DNA from: a virus
DNA length: 43,774 nucleotides
Direction: 5' to 3' (one strand)
IMG/VR virus record: IMGVR_UViG_3300047174_000108
Coordinates: 1 to 43,774 of that record
In this document: one piece after another, positions 1-43,774 of the stretch
How positions within the stretch are numbered: position 1 is the first letter of the stretch
Layout: each line of letters opens with the position of its first letter
The notes under the pieces: generated by a model
What the model was told of the DNA's origin: nothing
The model's database searches: none
Seen by the model: the letters and a program-made list of their open reading frames with translations, nothing else
Made by a program: the position numbers and the translations under genes

Positions 1-127
1 GTGGTCGTGGAGCCGGCCGCTAGGGTCGCGCCTGTGGTGGAGATCGTACAAGCGGGAGGCGGCGATGAAGCCGGTCCGACGTCGCAGAGTGTACCGTTGG
101 CATATATGGCTAATGCTGCGCTGTTGA
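1..127. repeat. terminal direct repeat, copy 1
   Basis: Bases 1-127 are identical to bases 43648-43774. The tail fibre reading frame continues in phase across the junction. The length of 127 equals a common maximum k-mer of short-read assemblers, so this most likely marks a circular assembly graph and not a physical terminal repeat. Remove one copy to get the 43,647 bp genome. Confidence 0.95.
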
Positions 128-2006
128 CGGTCGGCACCGAAGAGAAATTAAACACGCCCGTGGGTAAGAGTTCAGTAAATCCGGCAGAGTTTGAAATTAC
201 TATTGTGCCGGTTCCAATATTTTGCAGGGTTTGATTTCCGCCCTGCCCAGACAGAGTACTCGTAGAATTTCCGAAGACAAACAAGTTTGGGTTTGCACTG
301 GCCGATCCCCATAGCTCTACATACGCGCCGTTTCCGCTTGTCCCGCCAAAAATGGTATAAGCAGACGAGTTTGAACTAGCGTATATGTTCCCGGCTATTT
401 GCATTCCGTTATTAGCTGCTATTGGCTGGCTAAATGTGGTTGGGCCGGTTACCGTTCCGCCGCCCAGCGACAAAGGCGTGTAGCCCAACGCCGCCAAAAC
501 CTGTGCTGACGTCAGGCCTGTGGCGGCGGCGACGCTGAAGGGTCCGCCGGAGGTAGCCAAACCTCCCGCCGTGTTGACCGCGTTCGCAGCCGCTGTAAGG
601 ACGCCCGAACCTGCCCCCGTGAGGCCTGACAGTGGCGCTCCACTGGCCGTTGTAGCCGTGGCCGCATTGCCGGAAATGCTAATCCCCCACGTACCGCTCG
701 ATCCTGTGCCTGTGGGCGTGGGCGGCGTGTAGCCTAAGGCGCCGGTGATCTGAGACGAAGACAGCGTCAAGCCGCTGTAGGCGCCGCTAAGGCGCCCTGC
801 TGGCACAGTTCCACTGGAAAGGTTGCTAGCGACGCTAGAATAGGCTTCTGCGTTGGACTGAGCAGTCGCCGCCGCGCCGGCTGCATCAAACGCGGTGGTG
901 GGCTGATAAGCGGCCGATTGCAGCCCGAGATAGGACGCCGCGCCTGAGCCCGTCAGGAACCCGCTGGACGTATTGACCCCGTTGGCCGCAGCCGTGAGCA
1001 CGCCCGATCCTGCGCCCGTGAGGCCAGACAGTGGTGCCGTGCTGGCCGTTGTAGCCGTGGCCGCATTGCCGGAAATGCTAATCCCCCACGTACCGCTCGC
1101 TCCGCTTCCCGTGGGCGTCGGCGGCGTGTAACCAAGGGCGCCGGTGACTTGCCCTGAGGACAAGGTGAGGCCTGAATAAGAGCCGCTTAACCGTCCCGAA
1201 GGAAGCGTACCGCTAATTTGGTTGCTGGAATTCGTGCCGACCCCGGCTGCGTCGAAAGCCGTAGTCGGCTGATAGGCCGCCGATTGAAGCCCGAGATAGG
1301 ACGCCGCGCCTGAGCCTGTCAGGAAACCGCTGGACGTGTTGACCGCGTTGGCCGCGCCAGTGGCGAAGCCTGATCCGCTGAGCCCCAAATTGGTGCGCGC
1401 CGTCGCTGCCGACGCAAGATCGCTGAGGTTGTTGGCCTTTTGCAAGCTTGCGGCCTGAGCAGTCGCCGCCGCGCCGGCCGCGTCGAACGCGGATGCGGGC
1501 TGATAAGCGGCCGATTGCAGCCCGAGATAGGACGCCGCGCCTGAGCCCGTCAGGAACCCGCTGGACGTATTGACGGCGTTCGCCGCCCCCGTAGCGAACC
1601 CCGATCCGCTAAGCCCAAGGTTTGTGCGTGCCGTCGCGGCCGAGGCGAGATCGCTGAGGTTGCTGGACTTCTGAAGGCTGGCGGCCTGGGCCGCTGCCGC
1701 CGCGCCGGCTGCGTCGAAAGCCGTAGTCGGCTGATAGGCGGCCGATCCGAGACCTAAAAGCGCTTGCGCGCCGCTTTGAGTGGTCGAGGCCAAGATGTCC
1801 AGGCCAAACGCTCCCGGTGCCGTTCCAAGGCCCCCAGAAACCAATTGAGCAGCTGTAGCTTGCTTCGTGCCACCGGCGTGCCAGACGGCGAGAGGATCCG
1901 TGCTCGAAACCGATCCGGCGACGGGAAGATTTGGAATCGACTGCGCGCGCGCCACGCCGCCAAGCAAAAGTAAAGCGGCTAAGAGACCAAAAAAAAGGGG
2001 TGCCAT
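1..2006 (-). CDS. tail fibre protein, N-terminal part (continues at 43647 on the circle)
   Basis: Long fibre gene starting at ATG 2006 and open to base 1; it continues in the same frame through the terminal repeat to a stop at 42090, giving about 1,187 residues in total. The start is forced: no other in-frame Met follows for several hundred residues. Residues 1-22 look like a Sec signal peptide (hydrophobic LLAALLLLGG core, ARA before Gln). The body is Ala/Gly/Ser/Thr-rich, with repeated segments such as ALGYTPPTPTG, SGRLSGSYSGLTLSS and FLTGSGAASYLGLQSAAYQP, typical of phage fibre shafts. The gene overlaps the preceding one by 28 bases. Role in host adsorption is inferred from composition, length and position. 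Confidence 0.88.
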   Translation of the reverse strand, partial: MAPLFFGLLAALLLLGGVARAQSIPNLPVAGSVSSTDPLAVWHAGGTKQATAAQLVSGGLGTAPGAFGLDILASTTQSGAQALLGLGSAAYQPTTAFDAAGAAAAAQAASLQKSSNLSDLASAATARTNLGLSGSGFATGAANAVNTSSGFLTGSGAASYLGLQSAAYQPASAFDAAGAAATAQAASLQKANNLSDLASAATARTNLGLSGSGFATGAANAVNTSSGFLTGSGAASYLGLQSAAYQPTTAFDAAGVGTNSSNQISGTLPSGRLSGSYSGLTLSSGQVTGALGYTPPTPTGSGASGTWGISISGNAATATTASTAPLSGLTGAGSGVLTAAANGVNTSSGFLTGSGAASYLGLQSAAYQPTTAFDAAGAAATAQSNAEAYSSVASNLSSGTVPAGRLSGAYSGLTLSSSQITGALGYTPPTPTGTGSSGTWGISISGNAATATTASGAPLSGLTGAGSGVLTAAANAVNTAGGLATSGGPFSVAAATGLTSAQVLAALGYTPLSLGGGTVTGPTTFSQPIAANNGMQIAGNIYASSNSSAYTIFGGTSGNGAYVELWGSASANPNLFVFGNSTSTLSGQGGNQTLQNIGTGTIVISNSAGFTELLPTGVFNFSSVPTVNSAALAIYANGTLCDVGPASSPPPACTISTTGATLAAGSTT
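643..700 (-). repeat. 58 bp direct repeat in fibre gene (partner 1042..1099)
   Basis: Positions 643-700 and 1042-1099 are identical over 58 bases, 399 bp apart and so in the same reading frame. They encode the same fibre-shaft segment (TWGISISGNAATATTAS). DNA-level identity in a coding repeat suggests recent duplication or gene conversion. Confidence 0.85.
900..977 (-). repeat. 78 bp direct repeat in fibre gene (partner 1497..1574)
   Basis: Positions 900-977 and 1497-1574 are identical over 78 bases, 597 bp apart and in frame. A third, diverged copy lies near 1266-1343. They encode the segment around SSGFLTGSGAASYLGLQSAAYQP. Unequal recombination between copies would change fibre length without a frameshift. 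Confidence 0.87.
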
Positions 2007-2224
2007 GCGTCGTCCCTCCCATAAAAATAAGGGGTTCCGGGAGCAGTGCCGTCTTCTAGCAAGACAGTCTCCCCCACAGAACCTGTTTCCGGCAGCGCCG
2101 ACACCAAAGTAAAGCCGCTTGAAATCCCTACGATCAGCCCCAGCAAAAAATTGAAATTCGCCAAAAGTTGAGTCACGTCAGCTGGCTGACCGTTAGCTAG
2201 ATCAGGGTAAGGAAGTTCCGCCAT
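1979..2224 (-). CDS. small tail-fibre-associated protein with NG(Q/T)(P/T)AD motif
   Basis: 81 residues from ATG 2224, which overlaps the stop of the upstream gene (TGATG), so translation is probably coupled. Residues 5-25 (PYPDLANGQPADVTQLLANF) match the pattern seen again in the protein at 2715..3314 (YPYVLSNGQTADANQVMADF). This short motif recurs at the start of fibre-type proteins in many phages. Here it has no signal peptide. The gene overlaps the fibre start by 28 bases. It is probably a fibre attachment or linker piece; exact function unknown. Confidence 0.75.
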   Translation of the reverse strand: MAELPYPDLANGQPADVTQLLANFNFLLGLIVGISSGFTLVSALPETGSVGETVLLEDGTAPGTPYFYGRDDAWHPFFLVS

Positions 2225-2715
2225 CAGCAAGGCGTCCCTGTGAAGCTGAGCGTCACAGACACGTTTGCCCGAGCGGTGATGCCCGTCGAAGTATCCGTTG
2301 CAGTTACGGTTGCAGTGTCCAAAACGAGCGTGTTGCTGCACGACACAGCGGCGCTGAAAGTGGTCGTGACCGCTGTAGGGCTTGTGATCGTTGCAACGCC
2401 TCCGTCTGTCCAAGCGTAGGTATAGCTGCCAAGGCCGCCCGAGGCTGTAGCCGTCGAGGGGTTCGACACGGCCACGCCCGCGGTCGCGCGGGACCCGGAA
2501 GCGGACGTCGGAGATGCCGTGACACTCAAAGCCGAAAAGAAGAGCTTGTTGCCCGCAGCAGTACCAATATAGCCGCTTATGGCGGCGTGGTTCACGCCGC
2601 TCTCGCCGACGTAAATCTCCTTGACAATGTGGTTCGTGCCGCTCTCGCCAATGCTAGTGACCTGAGCGCAACAAGGCCCAGCCAGGAGCCACAGCAATGC
2701 GAGAAGCCAGCGCAT
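2224..2715 (-). CDS. exported tail-region protein, Ig-like
   Basis: 163 residues from ATG 2715 (TGATG overlap with the upstream stop). The N-terminus (MRWLLALLWLLAGPCCAQ) is a clear signal peptide with a CCA-Q cleavage candidate; the Cys pair does not fit a lipobox well. Two GESG-N-H repeats follow near residues 23-42. The C-terminal half is Ser/Thr/Val-rich, with beta-sandwich features (YAWT, NTLVLDTATVTATD), resembling PKD/Ig-like adhesion domains. It sits in a chain of overlapping tail genes. An adhesion or receptor-contact role is inferred; I do not recognise a named family. Confidence 0.75.
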   Translation of the reverse strand: MRWLLALLWLLAGPCCAQVTSIGESGTNHIVKEIYVGESGVNHAAISGYIGTAAGNKLFFSALSVTASPTSASGSRATAGVAVSNPSTATASGGLGSYTYAWTDGGVATITSPTAVTTTFSAAVSCSNTLVLDTATVTATDTSTGITARANVSVTLSFTGTPC

Positions 2716-3314
2716 CAGTTGGTCTGCAAATAGATGGCGCCGGTGGCCAGCGTGCCGGGAGCCGACGTCCCATAAGTCACAGACGCCGCACCGCCGTTTG
2801 TCAAATACATCCCTGGCGCAGAATTGATGGTCGTGCCCGAGGGAAAAGCTTGGGCCGCTCCCCAAGTGTTCGCCGCGGCCAGGACCGAAGCTGACACCGT
2901 AGGGTAAACCAAAGCGCCCGCCGCGGCGGCGCTGATCGGAACCGGAACGCCAGCGGATCCGGAGCTGTTGGCGATAAAGGTCTGCGCAGCCTGAGACGCC
3001 AGGGTAGGGTTAGGGTACGTGCCAGCTAGGGCGCCTCCCGCTGCGCCTCCAGTCCCCATGGTGTTGCCAGTACCGCCTTGGGCGATCGACAGCGGAGTCG
3101 AAAGGCCGTTCAGCGACGTGATGTCGCTGTTCGCGCCGTTTGCCGCGCCGCTGTTAACAAAGCAATTCCTGACTAAATTAAAATCCGCCATCACTTGATT
3201 GGCGTCGGCGGTCTGGCCATTGCTCAACACGTAAGGATAAGAAGAGCAAATCCCCGCAAACGCAGGCCGTGTCAGGGCGCTCAATAGTCCAGCAAGGACA
3301 AAAAGCTTCTTCAT
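2715..3314 (-). CDS. exported tail-fibre-type protein
   Basis: 199 residues from ATG 3314, overlapping the upstream stop by ATGA. Residues 1-20 form a textbook signal peptide (MKK, hydrophobic core, AFA-G). The fibre-type motif YPYVLSNGQTADANQVMADF and a Cys follow, then a Gly/Ala/Ser-rich shaft. That shaft includes TYPNPTLASQAAQTF, a pattern common in phage tail fibres. The C-terminus ends in a TGAIYLQTN segment. The start at 3314 is preferred because upstream in-frame sequence is only a shadow of the 719-residue gene. Probable short tail fibre or baseplate appendage. Confidence 0.8.
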   Translation of the reverse strand: MKKLFVLAGLLSALTRPAFAGICSSYPYVLSNGQTADANQVMADFNLVRNCFVNSGAANGANSDITSLNGLSTPLSIAQGGTGNTMGTGGAAGGALAGTYPNPTLASQAAQTFIANSSGSAGVPVPISAAAAGALVYPTVSASVLAAANTWGAAQAFPSGTTINSAPGMYLTNGGAASVTYGTSAPGTLATGAIYLQTN

Positions 3315-5470
3315 ATTCCTGGCCCTTGTGTGAGGAACCCCGTCGGCGAATACTTTATGTACAAGTTCCCGATGGATTGTCCCGGCGAAGAGGTTCCGAG
3401 GACTTCCACGGACATCTGCTTGAAGTCCACCGTGCCGGTCCAATCTATAGGATACTGCACAAATGGTCCAGTCGCGACGCCCCAGTCGAACGTGCCCCAG
3501 CTCACCGCTCCCCAGACCGACCCGCCCAGGCCTTCTCCAGCGCCGTAGTAATTGGCGCGGCCCCACTGAAACTCCCCCCAGAGCGTAGGCTGCTGGACGT
3601 AGCCGTCAATGTAAACCGTATCGAGGGTTTTGCTCGCCTCGTTGAAAGACCGAACCCGCACCGTATCCTGGTCGCCGAGAGCCAGCATGATCGTCGACTC
3701 GACCACTTGGTTATTAGCCATGTCGGCATTGTCCGGCCCTAGCGTCGTCGTGTAGTTCCAAGACAACGCCGCGTTATTTTCAGTGTAGGTTGACGTCGCA
3801 ACAGGGATCACACCCGACTGGTAAAGTGCGGCCGGCGCAGCGACCGGCGCGGCGATGAAACCGCCGCCCGCGCCGCCGATCGGATAAGACCCGATCACGT
3901 TTGCCGCAAAGGTATGCGGCCCTGTCCAAATTTTCAGGTCGAAGTCGTACCAGTATTCTTGGAAGGGCTGACCAGCGGCCAGGGAGTTTTGCAGGCTGAT
4001 CCGCATCACGTCCTGGCCATAGGCTGCGCACATCCGCGACGGATAGAGCGCGTTGATCAAAGGCGTGTTGACGCCTTGGCCGTTAGTGCCGATGGGCTCG
4101 GACACTTGGCCCGTCAGACCAAGGACGCGAAGCCCGTCGGTCGCCACATAGGCCAGGCCAAGCGGCGTGGCGCAGATAGTGCTGGGCGCCAGGGTGCCGA
4201 CCCCGCCGGTGATCGCGTTCTGCTGAAGGTTGCTGGTGGCGGCATCGCCGGTGATCTGGTACTGGGTGCCGGTCCCCTTGAACGCGATCAGCGCTGCGAC
4301 CACGCCTCCTGTCACCGTGTTGGTGTACGGCAGACCTGCCAGGGCTGTGATCGGCTGGTTGTCACCCAAGGTCAGTGCCTGATCGGCGTTGGTGAGCTGG
4401 GTTGGGTTCAGGGAGTCGGAAAAGACCAGGAAGTTGCCGACCCCGTAATAGGCCCGCCCGTTGAACTGACCGACGCACGCCGGCACGGACGACAGAGGAT
4501 AGGTGTTGAGGTTCCCCGCGCCCCAGAGCGGCGCCGCCAGCGTTCCGCCTTCAATCGCCACGGCAACACCGTTAGCGGTCGCCGTGGCGTTTTCAGAAAT
4601 CGTGATCGACCCACCGCCCGAGACGTCTATGGCTACCGCAGACGCTGTCTCGATAGCGTTCTCCGACAAAGTGATCTGCGTCCCGCTATTCACCGAAACC
4701 ACATAAGCGCCCACCGAGAAGGCGGGGGACGCCACGCTCATGCCGTAGGTGATCCCCGCGGTGCTCGAGAGACCTGTGACGACCGGGCTGGCGTTGGTGG
4801 TGTTGCCTGTCAAGTTTGCGCTGAAGGTCCCGTTCGCCGCGGAGACCACCGTCGCGCCTGCGGGTATTCCTGGCCCACTGATCGCTTGACCAGGCTGCAC
4901 GCCGCTCAGGATCGGCGCAGACGTGCCGCTCGGCGTCTGCACGCTGGCGATGACCGGCGAGCCAGCGACGGTGTTGCCGCTGATCGCACCCGCCACAAAG
5001 CTCGAAATGTCAAACCAACCGATGTACGGCCCCGCGCCGCCGGGAAAGCCGGGGTGCGTTACAATGACGCGGCTGGGGAACGCCACGATGGTCGGCGGCG
5101 TCCAATCGCCCACCGTCGGCTGCGTAGCCGGCACGTTGCCAGGAAGAACGCCGCTGACGGGGATGTAAGCGCCGGCTTTCAGGTCGTAGCAAAAGGGCTC
5201 GTCATAACCGGGATTGCGGCTGGTCGAAATCATCCCGTACATGCGCGACCCGACGATGGTAAACGCTGTCACCCCAGTCGGCATGTTGAACGGTGCGAAG
5301 TTCACGATCTCCTGCGCCGCGGGCCGCGGCACGAAAACGCTCTTGGTGGTGGGTGACGGCACGAGGTTCTGCAGCACCAGCATGGCGCCGCTGAAGGTGT
5401 TCGACCCGTCCTGGCTGTCGGACAGGCCGACGGGTCTATGGGTGAAGACCTTTGCGTTCTTGATCGCCAT
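3311..5470 (-). CDS. tail hub / tail stabilization protein (P22 gp10-like position)
   Basis: 719 residues, ATG 5470 overlapping the HNH gene stop. The N-terminus (PVGLSDSQDGSNTFSGAM) is followed by beta-rich sequence, with a repetitive middle (residues about 200-300) of TASAVAI / ATANGVAVAIEGG type. The Trp/Gly-rich C-terminal stretch (WGEFQWGRANYYGAG...WGAVSWGTFDWG) is typical of short-tail hub proteins. By size and position, after the adaptor and before the fibres, it most resembles the large tail hub/stabilization protein of P22- and Bcep22-type podoviruses. Family assignment is inference. Confidence 0.7.
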   Translation of the reverse strand: MAIKNAKVFTHRPVGLSDSQDGSNTFSGAMLVLQNLVPSPTTKSVFVPRPAAQEIVNFAPFNMPTGVTAFTIVGSRMYGMISTSRNPGYDEPFCYDLKAGAYIPVSGVLPGNVPATQPTVGDWTPPTIVAFPSRVIVTHPGFPGGAGPYIGWFDISSFVAGAISGNTVAGSPVIASVQTPSGTSAPILSGVQPGQAISGPGIPAGATVVSAANGTFSANLTGNTTNASPVVTGLSSTAGITYGMSVASPAFSVGAYVVSVNSGTQITLSENAIETASAVAIDVSGGGSITISENATATANGVAVAIEGGTLAAPLWGAGNLNTYPLSSVPACVGQFNGRAYYGVGNFLVFSDSLNPTQLTNADQALTLGDNQPITALAGLPYTNTVTGGVVAALIAFKGTGTQYQITGDAATSNLQQNAITGGVGTLAPSTICATPLGLAYVATDGLRVLGLTGQVSEPIGTNGQGVNTPLINALYPSRMCAAYGQDVMRISLQNSLAAGQPFQEYWYDFDLKIWTGPHTFAANVIGSYPIGGAGGGFIAAPVAAPAALYQSGVIPVATSTYTENNAALSWNYTTTLGPDNADMANNQVVESTIMLALGDQDTVRVRSFNEASKTLDTVYIDGYVQQPTLWGEFQWGRANYYGAGEGLGGSVWGAVSWGTFDWGVATGPFVQYPIDWTGTVDFKQMSVEVLGTSSPGQSIGNLYIKYSPTGFLTQGPGI

Positions 5471-19032: not shown

Positions 19033-19779
19033 ATGACCGTTTCGATAACCCGTGACCAGCTGGTCGCTATGAAGCCTTGCGATCTCGAAAGCCGCCTTGC
19101 TTTATTCGGCGATCGCGAAACCCTTACCGTTGCAGACGCATTGGCGGCCGGCGTGCCGGTCTACGATCTGCTTTGGGTCGCCGCCCGCCTCGACATGAAG
19201 CGCCAATGCGTCCGATTCGCTTTAGAGTGCACCCAGCGTGTCGCGCACCTCAATCCAGATCCTCGCGTTCAAGGCGCCTTGGACGCCACGCAAAAATGGC
19301 TCGACGCTGATACGGGCGTAACCGAGGCCGCCGTCGGGGCCGCCAGGGCCGCCAGGGCCGCCAGGGCCGCCGCCAGGGACGCCGCCAGGGACGCCGCCAG
19401 GGATGCCAGGGACGCCGCCAGGGATGCCAGGGCCGCCGAGGCCGCCTGGACCGCCGAGGCCGCCTGGGCCGCTGCCAGGGCCGCCGCCAGGGCCGCCGAG
19501 GCCGCCAGGGCCGCCAGGGCCGCCGGGGCCGCCGCCTGGGCCGCCGGGGCCGCCGCCAGGGCCGCCGAGGCCGCCAGGGCCACCGCCAGGGCCGCCGCCT
19601 GGGCCGCCGGGGCCGCCGGGGCCGCCGCCTGGGCCGCCGGGGCCGCCGCCGAGGCCGCCGGGGCCGCCGCCGAGGCCGCCGGGGCCGCCGGGGCCGCCGG
19701 GGCCGCCGGGGCCGCCGGGGCCGCCGGGGCCGCCGAACAAGAGGCGCAGCGCGAAATTTTCCTTAAGATATTCGCATGA
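19033..19779 (+). CDS. Ala-rich helical repeat protein
   Basis: 248 residues from ATG 19033. Residues 1-95 are a normal globular domain (DQLVAMKPCDLESRLALFGDRETLTVADAL..., LLWVAARL, CVRFALECTQRV), seen with such tails in many phage and bacterial small proteins. Residues 96-235 are almost purely Ala with Arg, Glu, Trp, Gly and Asp, in a near nonapeptide/tripeptide pattern. The C-terminus returns to a mixed EQEAQREIFLKIFA. The repeat is encoded by GCCGCC(A/G)GG-type triplet blocks that can slip without frameshift. Function unknown; the family is sometimes labelled putative immunity protein. Confidence 0.72.
   Translation: MTVSITRDQLVAMKPCDLESRLALFGDRETLTVADALAAGVPVYDLLWVAARLDMKRQCVRFALECTQRVAHLNPDPRVQGALDATQKWLDADTGVTEAAVGAARAARAARAAARDAARDAARDARDAARDARAAEAAWTAEAAWAAARAAARAAEAARAARAAGAAAWAAGAAARAAEAARATARAAAWAAGAAGAAAWAAGAAAEAAGAAAEAAGAAGAAGAAGAAGAAGAAEQEAQREIFLKIFA
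19339..19735. repeat. GCC/GCCAGG low-complexity tandem repeat
   Basis: Imperfect 6- and 9-base units (GCCGCCAGG, GCCGCCGGG, GCCGCCGAG) over about 400 bp inside the Ala-rich gene. All unit lengths are multiples of three. Expect length differences between isolates and assembly uncertainty here. Confidence 0.85.
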
Positions 19780-39662: not shown

Positions 39663-40114
39663 TTCACGTCCAAGACAAGATGGGTACAGGCGTGCTCGCT
39701 GAAGTTCACGATGCTGTAGAGGGCGCGATGATCGACTTGCGTGAGTTGGCCGACCGGCAGGACTGCGCCGGACCCGCCGCTGTAGGTCCAGCAGGAAGGC
39801 GACGGAACGAGGCACAAGTGGTGACGCGCGGTATTGGCTTCCATATCGGCCGCCCAAGGCACGTATCCACCAGGGTCGAGCTGCATAACCGCGACGTCGC
39901 CGAACTCGATAGGCCCGCCGACGTTGAGAGCAGACTTGACCCGCCCGAGCAAGCTTCGGCCGCTTTTCCACTCCTTCAGTACAGGCAAGGGGGTGCCGTC
40001 TTTCATCAGCGGCAAAGTGCGCAGCGGGCTTTCGCCGACGAGCTGCGTCTTGTACTTGGTGATGAACATTGCCGTAAAGAACGAGGCGTCCACGAAACCA
40101 ACAGCTTTGATCAC
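39659..40114 (-). CDS. aspartyl/asparaginyl hydroxylase-like protein
   Basis: 151 residues from GTG 40114, overlapping the lysozyme stop (GTGA). C-terminal half DVAVMQLDPGGYVPWAADME, RHHLCLVPSPSCWTY, VLPVGQLTQVDHRALYSIVNF and HACTHLVLDV follows the strand order of cupin-type Asp/Asn beta-hydroxylases (H-x-D, H-x-x-x-N, R/H-x-H-L-x-x-D). The first metal-binding His is replaced (WAAD), so catalysis is doubtful. May modify a virion or host protein, or bind a ligand only. Confidence 0.6.
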   Translation of the reverse strand: MIKAVGFVDASFFTAMFITKYKTQLVGESPLRTLPLMKDGTPLPVLKEWKSGRSLLGRVKSALNVGGPIEFGDVAVMQLDPGGYVPWAADMEANTARHHLCLVPSPSCWTYSGGSGAVLPVGQLTQVDHRALYSIVNFSEHACTHLVLDVK

Positions 40115-40584
40115 GACGACCAAAGCTCCGTCTCGGCTTGCCTGCGCTCCACAAGTCCCTCTAGGACTTCCTCATGACCGCCAACTTCGCCATAAATCCA
40201 ACGGTCGAACTGCGTCGCGACCTGGTCGATCTGACCCTGGTTGAGAAGGCGCAGCAGCATGGATTTGAGCAGCCGGCCGATACCTTCGTTGTAGGTGAAG
40301 TCGATCAAGGCGGCGTACTGGTTGTCGTTCAGGCTGGCCAACACGGATGGGTGCAGGACGCTACAGAGCGGCTGCGCGCCGTCGATCAGGAGGTCCCGGA
40401 GAAGGAGCGCATCCGCGTCGGCCAAGGCCATTGGCTTAGTGCGGTAGGTGTCAGGATCGGCGCCGGTGATCTTGTGACCAAAACCGATGGTCAAAAAGCC
40501 GTCAGGGTCCGGTGCCGCTTTTGGCACAAAGCCTTCGAACCGCTTGACGAACAGCGGCAAGCAAGCAGGGATCGGCCGCGTCAC
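40111..40584 (-). CDS. endolysin, GH24 lysozyme (T4-type)
   Basis: 157 residues from GTG 40584 (overlaps the upstream stop). The catalytic triad fits E-x8-D-x5-T: Glu17, Asp26, Thr32 in FEGFVPKAAPDPDGFLTIGFGH. Also NQYAALIDFTYNEGIGRLLKSMLL near residues 90-113. Hydrolyses peptidoglycan between MurNAc and GlcNAc to release progeny. No signal peptide or anchor, so it needs a holin; hydrophobic candidates are the 81-residue protein at 40739 and the protein at 15422. Length is usual for the family. Confidence 0.9.
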   Translation of the reverse strand: MTRPIPACLPLFVKRFEGFVPKAAPDPDGFLTIGFGHKITGADPDTYRTKPMALADADALLLRDLLIDGAQPLCSVLHPSVLASLNDNQYAALIDFTYNEGIGRLLKSMLLRLLNQGQIDQVATQFDRWIYGEVGGHEEVLEGLVERRQAETELWSS

Positions 40585-40739
40585 GCAGTCCTCGGGCCGA
40601 GGGTCTTGGGGGTCGGCGCCACGCCGCTGCGCGTCGGGTCACTGTTCACGCTGCCCTTAGGCGGGCGCATCCCTGAGTCGCCAGGGGGCGACATGTTCTT
40701 CATGCCTTCGTGCATGTAACCTTTGCCGCTCTTGGCCAT
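40581..40739 (-). CDS. 52-residue Gly/Pro/Lys-rich protein
   Basis: ATG 40739 (TGATG overlap with the previous gene) to stop at 40581. Sequence features: KSGKGYMHEGMKN, PPGDSGMRPPKG. Low-complexity and basic, disordered. Similar tiny proteins occur in phage lysis or virion clusters. Coupled to the lysozyme gene. Confidence 0.55.
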   Translation of the reverse strand: MAKSGKGYMHEGMKNMSPPGDSGMRPPKGSVNSDPTRSGVAPTPKTLGPRTA

Positions 40740-40984
40740 CACTTGTCCCTCACGTACTGAGCGGTGGTCCCTGTGGGCACCGGGTGCGCAACATTGCCGT
40801 AAAGCTGAACCAAAGCCCAGCCCGCCACTGCGATCATGACGCCGAGCACCATTTTGTTCAAGGTGGATATGGCGGATTTCATTTCCGCCATGGTTTCCCG
40901 GATAGCCCCCCACCGCTCAGCGCACACAGCTTCGTGCTGACTGATCGAGCTTTCTGCTTTTTTGGCGACTTCCATGGCGTCCAC
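40739..40984 (-). CDS. membrane protein with N-terminal coiled coil, holin-like
   Basis: 81 residues from ATG 40984. Residues 1-42 are a charged helix (EVAKKAESSISQHEAVCAERW...), 45-65 one membrane segment (MVLGVMIAVAGWALVQLYG), then a short polar tail. The layout (coiled coil, one membrane helix) matches XhlA-like or other holin-accessory proteins. Two genes before the lysozyme, so lysis is the likely role. Confidence 0.65.
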   Translation of the reverse strand: MDAMEVAKKAESSISQHEAVCAERWGAIRETMAEMKSAISTLNKMVLGVMIAVAGWALVQLYGNVAHPVPTGTTAQYVRDK

Positions 40985-41016: not shown

Positions 41017-41364
41017 TTAGAAGTTTTCGGCTTCGGTCACCACGGCCGTGGACGACGCCACCACGCCGTAAATAGCAGCCGAACTGGTAAGAGTGATGCT
41101 GGAGCCCGGAGAACCTGCAGCGGCCAAGTATAGTCCTGTAGCCGTAGTGACGCCCGCCGGCCCCAGGTAAACTGCCGATGTCCCCGTATTGGCGATCGTG
41201 ACGGAGCCTCGATTTTGGCGATAGGCAACGATAAGAGTCGCCGTCGTGCCGACCGTCGCTTGAGCCGCAACAAAGTTCGTCGGTGTCGGGCCAGAGCTTT
41301 GCGCATTAGCAAAAGAAGCGCCGGCAAAAGCTAGCAACGCCAGGGCTAAAAGTATGCGCTTCAT
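41017..41364 (-). CDS. exported structural protein, beta-rich
   Basis: 115 residues from ATG 41364. Clear signal peptide MKRILLALALLAFAGASFANA-Q. The mature part is beta-rich with GSVTIANTGTSAVYLGPAGVT and AAGSPGSSITLTSSAAIYGVV, typical of small phage surface or decoration proteins. Start context AGGAGAGCAGC. Follows the fibre gene and belongs to the exported set. Confidence 0.72.
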   Translation of the reverse strand: MKRILLALALLAFAGASFANAQSSGPTPTNFVAAQATVGTTATLIVAYRQNRGSVTIANTGTSAVYLGPAGVTTATGLYLAAAGSPGSSITLTSSAAIYGVVASSTAVVTEAENF

Positions 41365-41373
41365 GCTGCTCTC

Positions 41374-41655
41374 CTAAGGCTTTTTGTCCGCTTTGGCCGC
41401 CGCCTGCAACTTGGCCACGGCATCTTGCTCTTGTTTGCTGATCGCATCAATCACCGGATCGGCTTCGGCGCCGGTGTAATCCTTGTGGAAAGCCTGCTTG
41501 GCGGCTTCAAGCACGCCGATAGACAAGGTGACTGTAATTTCGGTTTGCGCGGTGATTTGCGGCGCAGCGGCTGCCTGGGTGGGCGGGGCGGGTTTGGTCG
41601 CGGGCGCCGGGGCTGAGGCGGCGAGGGCTGCGGCGGCGATAAGAGCGGAGATCAT
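41374..41655 (-). CDS. small exported protein with Ala/Pro N-terminus
   Basis: 93 residues from ATG 41655. MISALIAAAALAASA is a probable signal sequence, followed by a Pro/Ala linker and a short globular domain (EITVTLSIGVLEAAKQAFHKDYTG...). Ends in KKP. Function unknown; clustered with other exported tail-region proteins. Confidence 0.65.
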   Translation of the reverse strand: MISALIAAAALAASAPAPATKPAPPTQAAAAPQITAQTEITVTLSIGVLEAAKQAFHKDYTGAEADPVIDAISKQEQDAVAKLQAAAKADKKP

Positions 41656-41698: not shown

Positions 41699-42079
41699 TT
41701 AGGGAGCCGTCACCGCGCACAGGAAATCACCCTCAGGGTCGGTAACCCCTACGGCGCATTGCCCGCTGGGTGTGGACGCTAAGGCTGTGGCGATAGCGTC
41801 GCGGCGGGGCTTTTCCACCTCACCAATGAACCCAATTGGAGCGCCCTTCGCAATAATGGCTGCGGCTTCAGCGGCCTTATCCGGAGATAAAGCAGACATC
41901 CCCTGGGCACGGGCGGCTCTAATACGTTCCGCATGCCCCCAGTACAGGCACGCCATGCGCCCGGTCTTCGGATCATTGACCGATATTTTGCACGGCGGTC
42001 TCAGATCCTGGGGTGTGTCCTGCGGAAGCCATTCTACGGGCGCGAGCATCAATGTCGCCGCGGCTAAAAATGCAAGCAT
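41699..42079 (-). CDS. exported Cys-containing protein
   Basis: 126 residues from ATG 42079, 10 bases after the fibre stop. N-terminal hydrophobic MLAFLAAATLMLAPVEWL; mature part with four Cys (PPCKISVNDPKTGRMACLYWG, GQCAVGV, FLCAV), which could form disulfides in the periplasm. This would suit an exported protein. Not a recognised family. Confidence 0.68.
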   Translation of the reverse strand: MLAFLAAATLMLAPVEWLPQDTPQDLRPPCKISVNDPKTGRMACLYWGHAERIRAARAQGMSALSPDKAAEAAAIIAKGAPIGFIGEVEKPRRDAIATALASTPSGQCAVGVTDPEGDFLCAVTAP

Positions 42080-42089
42080 GATAAGGCCT

Positions 42090-43774
42090 TTATTTTACGT
42101 TGGGGGTATAAATGCCGGTAGTCGTTCCGGTTGGCACCGTGAACGTCCAGCCTTTGGCGATGTTGTTATTAACTACGTGATTTCCATCCGCATAGATACT
42201 GACGAAAGTTCCCGAACCAACGCCTACAGTGGGGCTTATGTAGTTGTAGTCTAAACGCAGGGAGACGCCCGAAGATGTAGTTTGGTATACAGGAGTCGTA
42301 AAGGTTTCAGCGTTCGTGGAAGTGACGGACGTAACGTGCGCCACTTCCGCTACAGTCGCCGCCCCCCCAACAGAAACCTGCGTCCGGTCTCCTACGTTGC
42401 GGTAAACTGAGCCGCCCGTCCATTCAAAGTTAGTTGTGCCGTTGGTATCAGTAAGGCTAATCTCAGGTGTGCTGCTCGAATTGCCGTCAAATACGAAAAA
42501 TGAGCCTAGCGTCCAACTTCCGGCAACTTCGTTTATTGCTGAAGTGGTCCCTGATGCTAAAGACGCGTAGCCGCTGGCCAGGGTCACCTGCGGATTGTTT
42601 CCGTAACTGCATCCCGTTCCGGCTGAAGACGAGATTCCAACTGCGCCGGTGCTTGGCTCCAGCCCGAAAGATGACATAAACAACGACTGCCCCGCTCCGG
42701 CATTTGTAGAGCTAGCCGAGCATATTAACGCGATGGGGGTTCCAGCGTCAGCAAACCAATTAGACAAAAGCATACCGCTTACGCCCCCAATGCTAAGCCC
42801 TATGGTACCTGAGCTAAAAAAGATAGTTTCTTGATTGGCCGTAAGCGCCGCTGGCCAAATGTGTACGTTTTGTTGATAAACCGTGTCGTAAGCGCCATCT
42901 ACTAAAATATTTCCCCCGCCAGAAGACGTCGTTCCAAGGCAGGACATCAAAACATCGTCTAAAATTAATTGTCCATCGTTACCTCTTGCGTCGAGACAAA
43001 CTATGCCCGCGAATTCTCCCACCCCTGTTAATTTCATCGCCGGGACGTTTTGAGCGTAAATTAGCGGCACCCAGTTAGTCAAAGATGATCTTGTAGCCGT
43101 GTCAACTTGTTGCACTTGAATGGCAAGGTCCTTGATCACGGGTCCTGCTAAACCACTGGTGTTTACGTAAAGAAGTCCATGCGTAAACCCTGAATTTGAC
43201 GCAGCGTATATCGTAGAGCCGTGTCCGGCCGCCGAAGTTATTGAGTAGGGGGCGCGACCCTGCCCCCTAATTATTTGCGAAGGTGTGGTTTGAATTAAGT
43301 CACTTGAGATTAAGGCGCAGCCAAAAAACACCACTGATTTTCCAGTAGCCAGCCCGGCGTTAAAGATGGTCGTATCGTCAGCGCCGCAGGTGGTGTTGAA
43401 GCTAGGGTTTTCGTTCAAGCAAACCTCTGCGGAAGTGGTCACACAGCTCGAATAAATCGCGTTCGCCGCTGTCGTTAAGCCCGTAATTGTTGGGCTAGTC
43501 ATAGAGAGCGCGCCGGCCGTCCCCCCGTAGGTCACCAACCCACCAGACGCATTGGGCGTGGCCGTCAACGATATCCCGCTGCCAAGCGTTAGCGGCTGAA
43601 CGTACGTGCCGTCGCTGTAGAGCAGTTGCCCCGCGCTAAACCCGCTCGTGGTCGTGGAGCCGGCCGCTAGGGTCGCGCCTGTGGTGGAGATCGTACAAGC
43701 GGGAGGCGGCGATGAAGCCGGTCCGACGTCGCAGAGTGTACCGTTGGCATATATGGCTAATGCTGCGCTGTTGA
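42090..43774 (-). CDS. tail fibre protein, C-terminal part
   Basis: Continuation of the fibre begun at 2006; real gene boundary on the circle is 2006 through 43647 to 42090. This part is beta-rich: LTLGSGISLTATPNASGG, TIFNAGLATGKSVVFFGCALISSD, RGQGRAPYSITSAAGHGSTIY, GLLYVNTSGLAGPVIKDLAIQ, MKLTGVGEFAGIVCLDARG. Spacing of such segments resembles a right-handed beta-helix, as in tailspikes and pectate lyase folds. The last ~180 residues (ATVAEVAHVTSVTSTNAETF...) form a C-terminal tip. Clearly richer in A and T than the fibre N-terminus, suggesting a separately acquired receptor-binding part. A depolymerase function cannot be confirmed. Confidence 0.82.
   Translation of the reverse strand, partial: NSAALAIYANGTLCDVGPASSPPPACTISTTGATLAAGSTTTSGFSAGQLLYSDGTYVQPLTLGSGISLTATPNASGGLVTYGGTAGALSMTSPTITGLTTAANAIYSSCVTTSAEVCLNENPSFNTTCGADDTTIFNAGLATGKSVVFFGCALISSDLIQTTPSQIIRGQGRAPYSITSAAGHGSTIYAASNSGFTHGLLYVNTSGLAGPVIKDLAIQVQQVDTATRSSLTNWVPLIYAQNVPAMKLTGVGEFAGIVCLDARGNDGQLILDDVLMSCLGTTSSGGGNILVDGAYDTVYQQNVHIWPAALTANQETIFFSSGTIGLSIGGVSGMLLSNWFADAGTPIALICSASSTNAGAGQSLFMSSFGLEPSTGAVGISSSAGTGCSYGNNPQVTLASGYASLASGTTSAINEVAGSWTLGSFFVFDGNSSSTPEISLTDTNGTTNFEWTGGSVYRNVGDRTQVSVGGAATVAEVAHVTSVTSTNAETFTTPVYQTTSSGVSLRLDYNYISPTVGVGSGTFVSIYADGNHVVNNNIAKGWTFTVPTGTTTGIYTPNVK
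43648..43774. repeat. terminal direct repeat, copy 2
   Basis: Exact second copy of bases 1-127. It lies inside the tail fibre gene, so the window ends were cut at an arbitrary point and not at a biological terminus. Whether the packaged DNA is circularly permuted (headful) or has defined ends cannot be read from this. Confidence 0.95.

Follow-up and report, generated by a model that had tools for sequence, protein, structure and literature searches.

Signal Peptides on Tail Fibre-Like Proteins Suggest a Periplasmic Route of Fibre Maturation in Tailed Phages

A module of seven consecutive genes, which lies across the ends of a circular phage contig, encodes signal-bearing proteins that look like tail fibres and may be part of the virion. 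Judging from their sequences, export and disulphide formation of these fibres are well supported. The fibres are probably finished outside the cytoplasm and added late, a route undescribed for tailed phages in the open-access literature searched, which likewise yielded no mention of tail fibres with signal peptides. We lean toward the reading that the module encodes fibres made as Sec precursors, oxidised in the periplasm, and attached to virions at lysis. Signal peptides, a conserved cleavage register, a shared locus, fibre domains, and paired cysteines are features of the sequences themselves; that the proteins are really exported and oxidised, and that they attach at lysis, is what we infer. 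The preference for virion fibres that mature via the periplasm is based on the indirect evidence of the locus and the domains.

Fibres set the host range of phages and are generally assumed to be built in the cytoplasm. If the proposed route exists, exported and oxidised fibres would alter the relationship between virion assembly, lysis, and host range, and such phages would depend on the Sec and disulphide machinery of their hosts. In this case, trimming these N-termini during annotation, or expressing the proteins in the cytoplasm, may yield misfolded fibres.

Genomic Context of the Module

The window, i.e., the whole stretch of viral DNA analysed here, is a contig of 43,774 bases with a 127-base direct terminal repeat (positions 1-127 equal 43648-43774). 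The repeat is exactly 127 bases long in the relatives G012 and G015 too, and it probably reflects a k-mer overlap that the assembler left on a circular contig, not biological ends. The two ends thus join, and the fibre ORF crosses the junction: its first part (1..2006, minus strand) starts at 2006 and runs to position 1, and the remainder (42090..43774, minus strand), which overlaps the repeat, resumes at the other contig end and extends to 42090, giving 1187 aa without a stop. The original prediction had placed the start of this fibre correctly, whereas the protein is larger than it had stated. Because the ORF spans the junction, the genes at 2.0-3.3 kb directly adjoin the three located at 41.0-42.1 kb. 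According to the automatic gene calls, the order on the minus strand is 3311..5470, 2715..3314, 2224..2715, 1979..2224, the fibre, 41699..42079, 41374..41655, and 41017..41364, followed by a gene (40739..40984, minus strand) for an 81-aa protein with a hydrophobic segment, a short ORF, and the endolysin gene (40111..40584, minus strand) at the downstream end of the run. Between the 81-aa gene and the endolysin gene, the minus strand at 40581-40739 encodes a conserved basic protein of ~50 aa with the C-terminal motif PKTLGPRxA, which is also found in several relatives. The genome contains genes for a terminase, head-tail adaptor, major head protein, DNA polymerase, primase, and endolysin.

Directly upstream, the module is anchored by a conserved tail protein gene without a signal peptide (3311..5470, minus strand), which has 39 relatives in IMG/VR. 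By its position the product is a candidate nozzle-like protein; no solved nozzle matched it.

Signal Peptides in the Window

Signal peptides were called with a hand-made, rule-based caller that recognises OmpA, MalE, DsbA, and PhoA. By these rules, five of the seven module genes display the n-, h-, and c-regions and the small residues at -3/-1 expected for Sec export and signal peptidase I, whereas none of the remaining 43 window genes does (Fisher p=1e-5), and a chance origin of these signals was rejected. The protein encoded at 2715..3314 (minus strand; 199 aa) carries a 20-aa Sec signal (3314..3255) with a predicted cut between MKKLFVLAGLLSALTRPAFA and G. In the next protein (2224..2715, minus strand; 163 aa, two cysteines in the mature part) the cut between MRWLLALLWLLAGPCCA and Q was judged by eye, and the caller puts it a few residues later. 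The signal of the 1187-aa fibre (2006..1944) is MAPLFFGLLAALLLLGGVARA, with the predicted cut before Q. On the far side of the junction, the 115-aa protein at 41017..41364 (minus strand; no cysteine) has a clear signal, MKRILLALALLAFAGASFANA before Q (caller score 10.4), and the 93-aa protein at 41374..41655 (minus strand; no cysteine) a weaker signal-like N-terminus (caller score 8.3) in which no A-x-A precedes Q or G. The N-terminus of the 126-aa protein at 41699..42079 (minus strand; four cysteines) is hydrophobic, and this borderline signal lacks an acceptable cleavage site and was not called. The seventh gene (1979..2224, minus strand), located between the gene starting at 2715 and the fibre starting at 2006, encodes an 81-aa protein, MAELPYPDLANGQPADVTQLL, that has neither a signal nor a cysteine.

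The original prediction, whose coordinates were correct, had read export signals on six proteins in a row, most of them with A-x-A before Gln or Gly. Five are called as Sec signals; the protein at 41699..42079 stays borderline, its neighbour at 41374..41655 lacks the A-x-A pattern, and the row is interrupted by the signal-less 1979..2224 gene. The central proposal that part of an adhesion module is exported is strongly supported by the occurrence of the same domains with and without signals, by the matching N-terminus after the predicted cut, and by the paired cysteines described below.

The starts of the module genes appear sound, because the start at 3314 forms an ATGA overlap with the stop of the preceding gene, those at 2715 and 2224 have the form TGATG, and the start at 2006, which overlaps the upstream gene, is preceded by GGAGGG. 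A 97% identical relative (L002) retains all three signals of the 2.0-3.3 kb region. Its fibre signal has diverged (MARFFLGFLVTALLFGGAARA compared to MAPLFFGLLAALLLLGGVARA), yet the start of the mature protein has hardly changed, as would be usual for a signal peptide; no signal was called in its counterpart of 41374..41655. Transmembrane anchors instead of signals are possible for a few of the listed proteins, not for the fibres.

Similarity to Tail Fibres

Among PHROGs, the 2715..3314 protein matches tail-fibre families (8.9e-10), and such matches also occur among the signal-bearing proteins. Behind the signal it carries a domain of the form C..YPYVLSNGQTADANQVMADFN..C, with cysteines at positions 23 and 51, and the fibre motif NSDITSLNGLSTPLSIAQGGTG. 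With an unexported relative of this domain as query, the segment past the domain matched the solved tail fibres SU10 gp12 (7z47) and gp47 of 8vbx. A Phage Tail Collar domain was present in eight of ten signal-bearing relatives tested. The module proteins resemble SU10 gp12 (PDB 7z47) and Collar-domain (PF07484) fibres in the motif NSDITSLSGLTTPLSxxQGGTG and in the Collar domain of relatives, and they share with the fibres of cultured phages an N-terminal domain combined with variable C-terminal parts. Unlike these, they bear a signal peptide in front and paired cysteines within. The signal-less 1979..2224 protein contains the same kind of domain (PYPDLANGQPADVTQLLANFNF) as the 2715..3314 protein; similar genes exist in two relatives (L003 and L004), and the protein is a candidate cytoplasmic counterpart or docking piece. 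Searches for relatives of the fibre C-terminus and of the 41017..41364 protein found none, and structure models (pLDDT 33 and 51) gave no significant match in a fold search.

Conserved Cleavage Register in Two Domain Families

The upstream tail gene occurs in 39 loci fetched from IMG/VR, and in many of these the genes downstream of it encode signals. The domain behind the signal of the 2715..3314 protein (NGT domain) was gathered more widely by a DNA pattern for NGxxADAxQVxA[ND][FY]N, which yielded 119 viral and 16 bacterial loci. The 116 distinct N-termini are bimodal: 40 begin at the domain, 75 are extended, and one is ambiguous. In 74 of the 75 extended forms the extension is called as a signal, and the predicted cut lies 11 residues before the motif in 54 of these 74; the unexported forms show the same distance of 11 between Met+1 and the motif in 21 of 40 cases. 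Two loci (L071 and L082) even encode nearly the same domain, one with and the other without a signal. Since unexported members work without a signal, export is not required by the domain itself.

A second domain, DNTTGxITPxxLR, is unrelated to the NGT domain and behaves alike. A signal was called in all 18 extended forms and in none of the 77 short forms, with a distance from cut to motif of mostly 16 and from start to motif of mostly 16-17. Hence, in two unrelated fibre N-terminal domains the predicted cut of the signal-bearing form would leave the N-terminus of the unexported form, and this shared register indirectly supports the predicted removal of the signal in the cell. Cultured siphophages carry the DNTTGxITPxxLR domain, with no signal ahead of it, in a gene whose annotation reads neck protein. 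The example from Guernseyvirinae (RP180 ORF13) shares the domain with the exported forms and is encoded by a cultured phage within its virion-structure region; it differs in lacking a signal and in belonging to a siphophage, and "neck protein" is an annotation name only. One signal-bearing DNTTGxITPxxLR fibre gene (L247:5111-6646) is located among sheath/baseplate-like genes, as named by eye, so that the exported-fibre trait may extend past one lineage. Another (L327:4896-5558) has neighbours similar to those of L247.

Both NGT forms occupy the same locus: 48 of 54 exported and 24 of 28 unexported genes lie within -60 to +300 bases of the tail gene stop. In exported forms, ATGA coupling of the start to the stop upstream is the commonest arrangement; the start of the unexported forms adjoins the same stop, and hence neither form conceals the other. 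The original prediction had named starts placed downstream in homologues as an observation that would count against it; this coupling in both forms led us to reject downstream starts as well as hidden upstream signals. A frameshift fusion to the upstream tail gene is unlikely because the distance varies, from -26 to +262 in most cases. In 12 of the 74 signal-bearing NGT genes, the signal is followed by an in-frame start that has a fair ribosome site, and such starts would suit dual targeting, whereby an internal start or escape from export feeds virions in the cytoplasm and the exported part acts otherwise. We regard dual targeting as improbable, as the other 62 genes lack such a start and the paired cysteines suggest that the oxidised fold is the functional one.

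In INPHARED, no cultured phage matched the N-terminal NGT domain and the tail gene had no relative; a comparison of the tail gene with ~680 genomes of the same order and class as a Bradyrhizobium genome gave one weak partial match.

Paired Cysteines

Cysteines flanking the NGT motif occur as a pair in 51 of 75 exported forms compared to 0 of 40 unexported forms (p=2e-14), and a single flanking cysteine was seen in only one of the 75. Across proteins of these phages, the ratio of even to odd cysteine counts is 108:12 in the mature parts of signal-bearing proteins and 259:426 in the others, values that are inflated by relatedness. The test to rely on uses one representative per cluster (40 clusters of signal-bearing proteins) and gives 31:3 versus 50:78 (p=4e-8); the three clusters with odd counts resemble membrane or lipoprotein cases. 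Within the NGT family the ratios are 37:5 for exported and 7:15 for unexported forms. The module in the window, aside from 1979..2224, has cysteine counts of 2, 2, 10, 4, 0, and 0, the 10 being the total of the 1187-aa fibre. A tree-based independent-pairs test of signal against cysteine pair in the short domain contained too few supported pairs; the cluster-level parity test is independent of that tree. Even cysteine counts would be the trace expected of disulphide formation outside the cytoplasm, an interpretation that is well supported by these comparisons.

Together with the two domain families, the exact register, and the coupled starts, the cysteine parity also contradicts the view that the hydrophobic N-termini reflect chance or an artefact of start annotation. 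This view could draw on the use of a hand-made caller, which also called six of 170 spurious ORFs, and we consider it highly improbable.

A Possible Route to the Virion

In the route that we favour, tail-fibre and tail-appendage proteins would be synthesised as Sec precursors, pass the inner membrane, and lose their signal peptides. Folding and disulphide bonding of the mature fibres would take place in the periplasm, while the head and tail tube, which lack signals, would assemble in the cytoplasm. At lysis, holin and endolysin would join both compartments, and the waiting mature fibres could then attach via the N-terminal domain that is used by their unexported relatives. In extracts, finished particles of P22 and T4 can acquire their tailspikes and fibres, and late attachment is thus feasible. 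A broader proposal, on which we are evenly divided, is that these phages form a tailed-phage lineage with two-compartment virion finishing and lysis-triggered fibre attachment, whose relatives gain or lose the route by in-register addition or removal of the signal.

Virion proteins made with signal peptides are known from filamentous phages, where the coat proteins of inoviruses assemble in the membrane during extrusion. As a phage of the terminase/portal/major-head type, with a head-tail adaptor and an endolysin, the window genome stands outside this membrane-extruded class. Another precedent for export is the T4 protein Spackle (gp61.3), a phage-encoded periplasmic protein that has a cleaved Sec signal and interacts with a tail protein (PMC7650644). 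Spackle differs from the module proteins in being a 97-aa lysozyme inhibitor, not a fibre; no shared domain was seen, and no Pfam or PHROG match linked the module to a Spackle-type family.

That an exported phage protein acts in the periplasm would also be in line with a different fate of the module proteins. They could be exported without ever joining the virion and function in the periplasm or at the cell surface in receptor masking, superinfection block, as decoys, or in the degradation of surface polymers. Exclusion, receptor masking, and assembly at the envelope, all proposed in the original prediction, are thus no more than candidate functions. Signals and paired cysteines fit such a role equally well, and host chromosomes bear exported NGT-domain proteins next to RHS-repeat genes, apparently outside prophages. 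Still, we deem a non-virion role rather unlikely, because the signal-bearing genes sit where unexported fibre genes sit, mostly in translational coupling to the tail gene, and their products still have the N-terminal domain, as well as Tail Collar domains. Moreover, several relatives appear to lack any other fibre candidate: in six of 43-47 kb, no large fibre-like protein without a signal was seen with a simple motif pattern and by eye, an approach that an unrecognised signal-less fibre could escape. These observations favour virion fibres that mature via the periplasm.

The chromosomal NGT proteins of Alphaproteobacteria (Bradyrhizobium, Bosea, Reyranella, Mesorhizobium) resemble the phage forms in having a signal peptide and mostly flanking cysteines, and differ in their location beside RHS-repeat and transglutaminase-like genes with no evident prophage. 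Exchange with host surface proteins is therefore a possible origin of the exported forms. In eight of these chromosomal loci (L167, L168, L169, L171, L173, L174, L175, L176) the exported NGT protein is encoded beside a small RHS-repeat (YD) protein, and some add a large RHS/transglutaminase-like protein, forming a recurring neighbourhood. Elsewhere in the window, ahead of the replication genes, the minus strand at 19222-19740 contains a putative coding ORF that consists of a long Gly-Pro-Gly repeat (GGPGGPGGPGG...).
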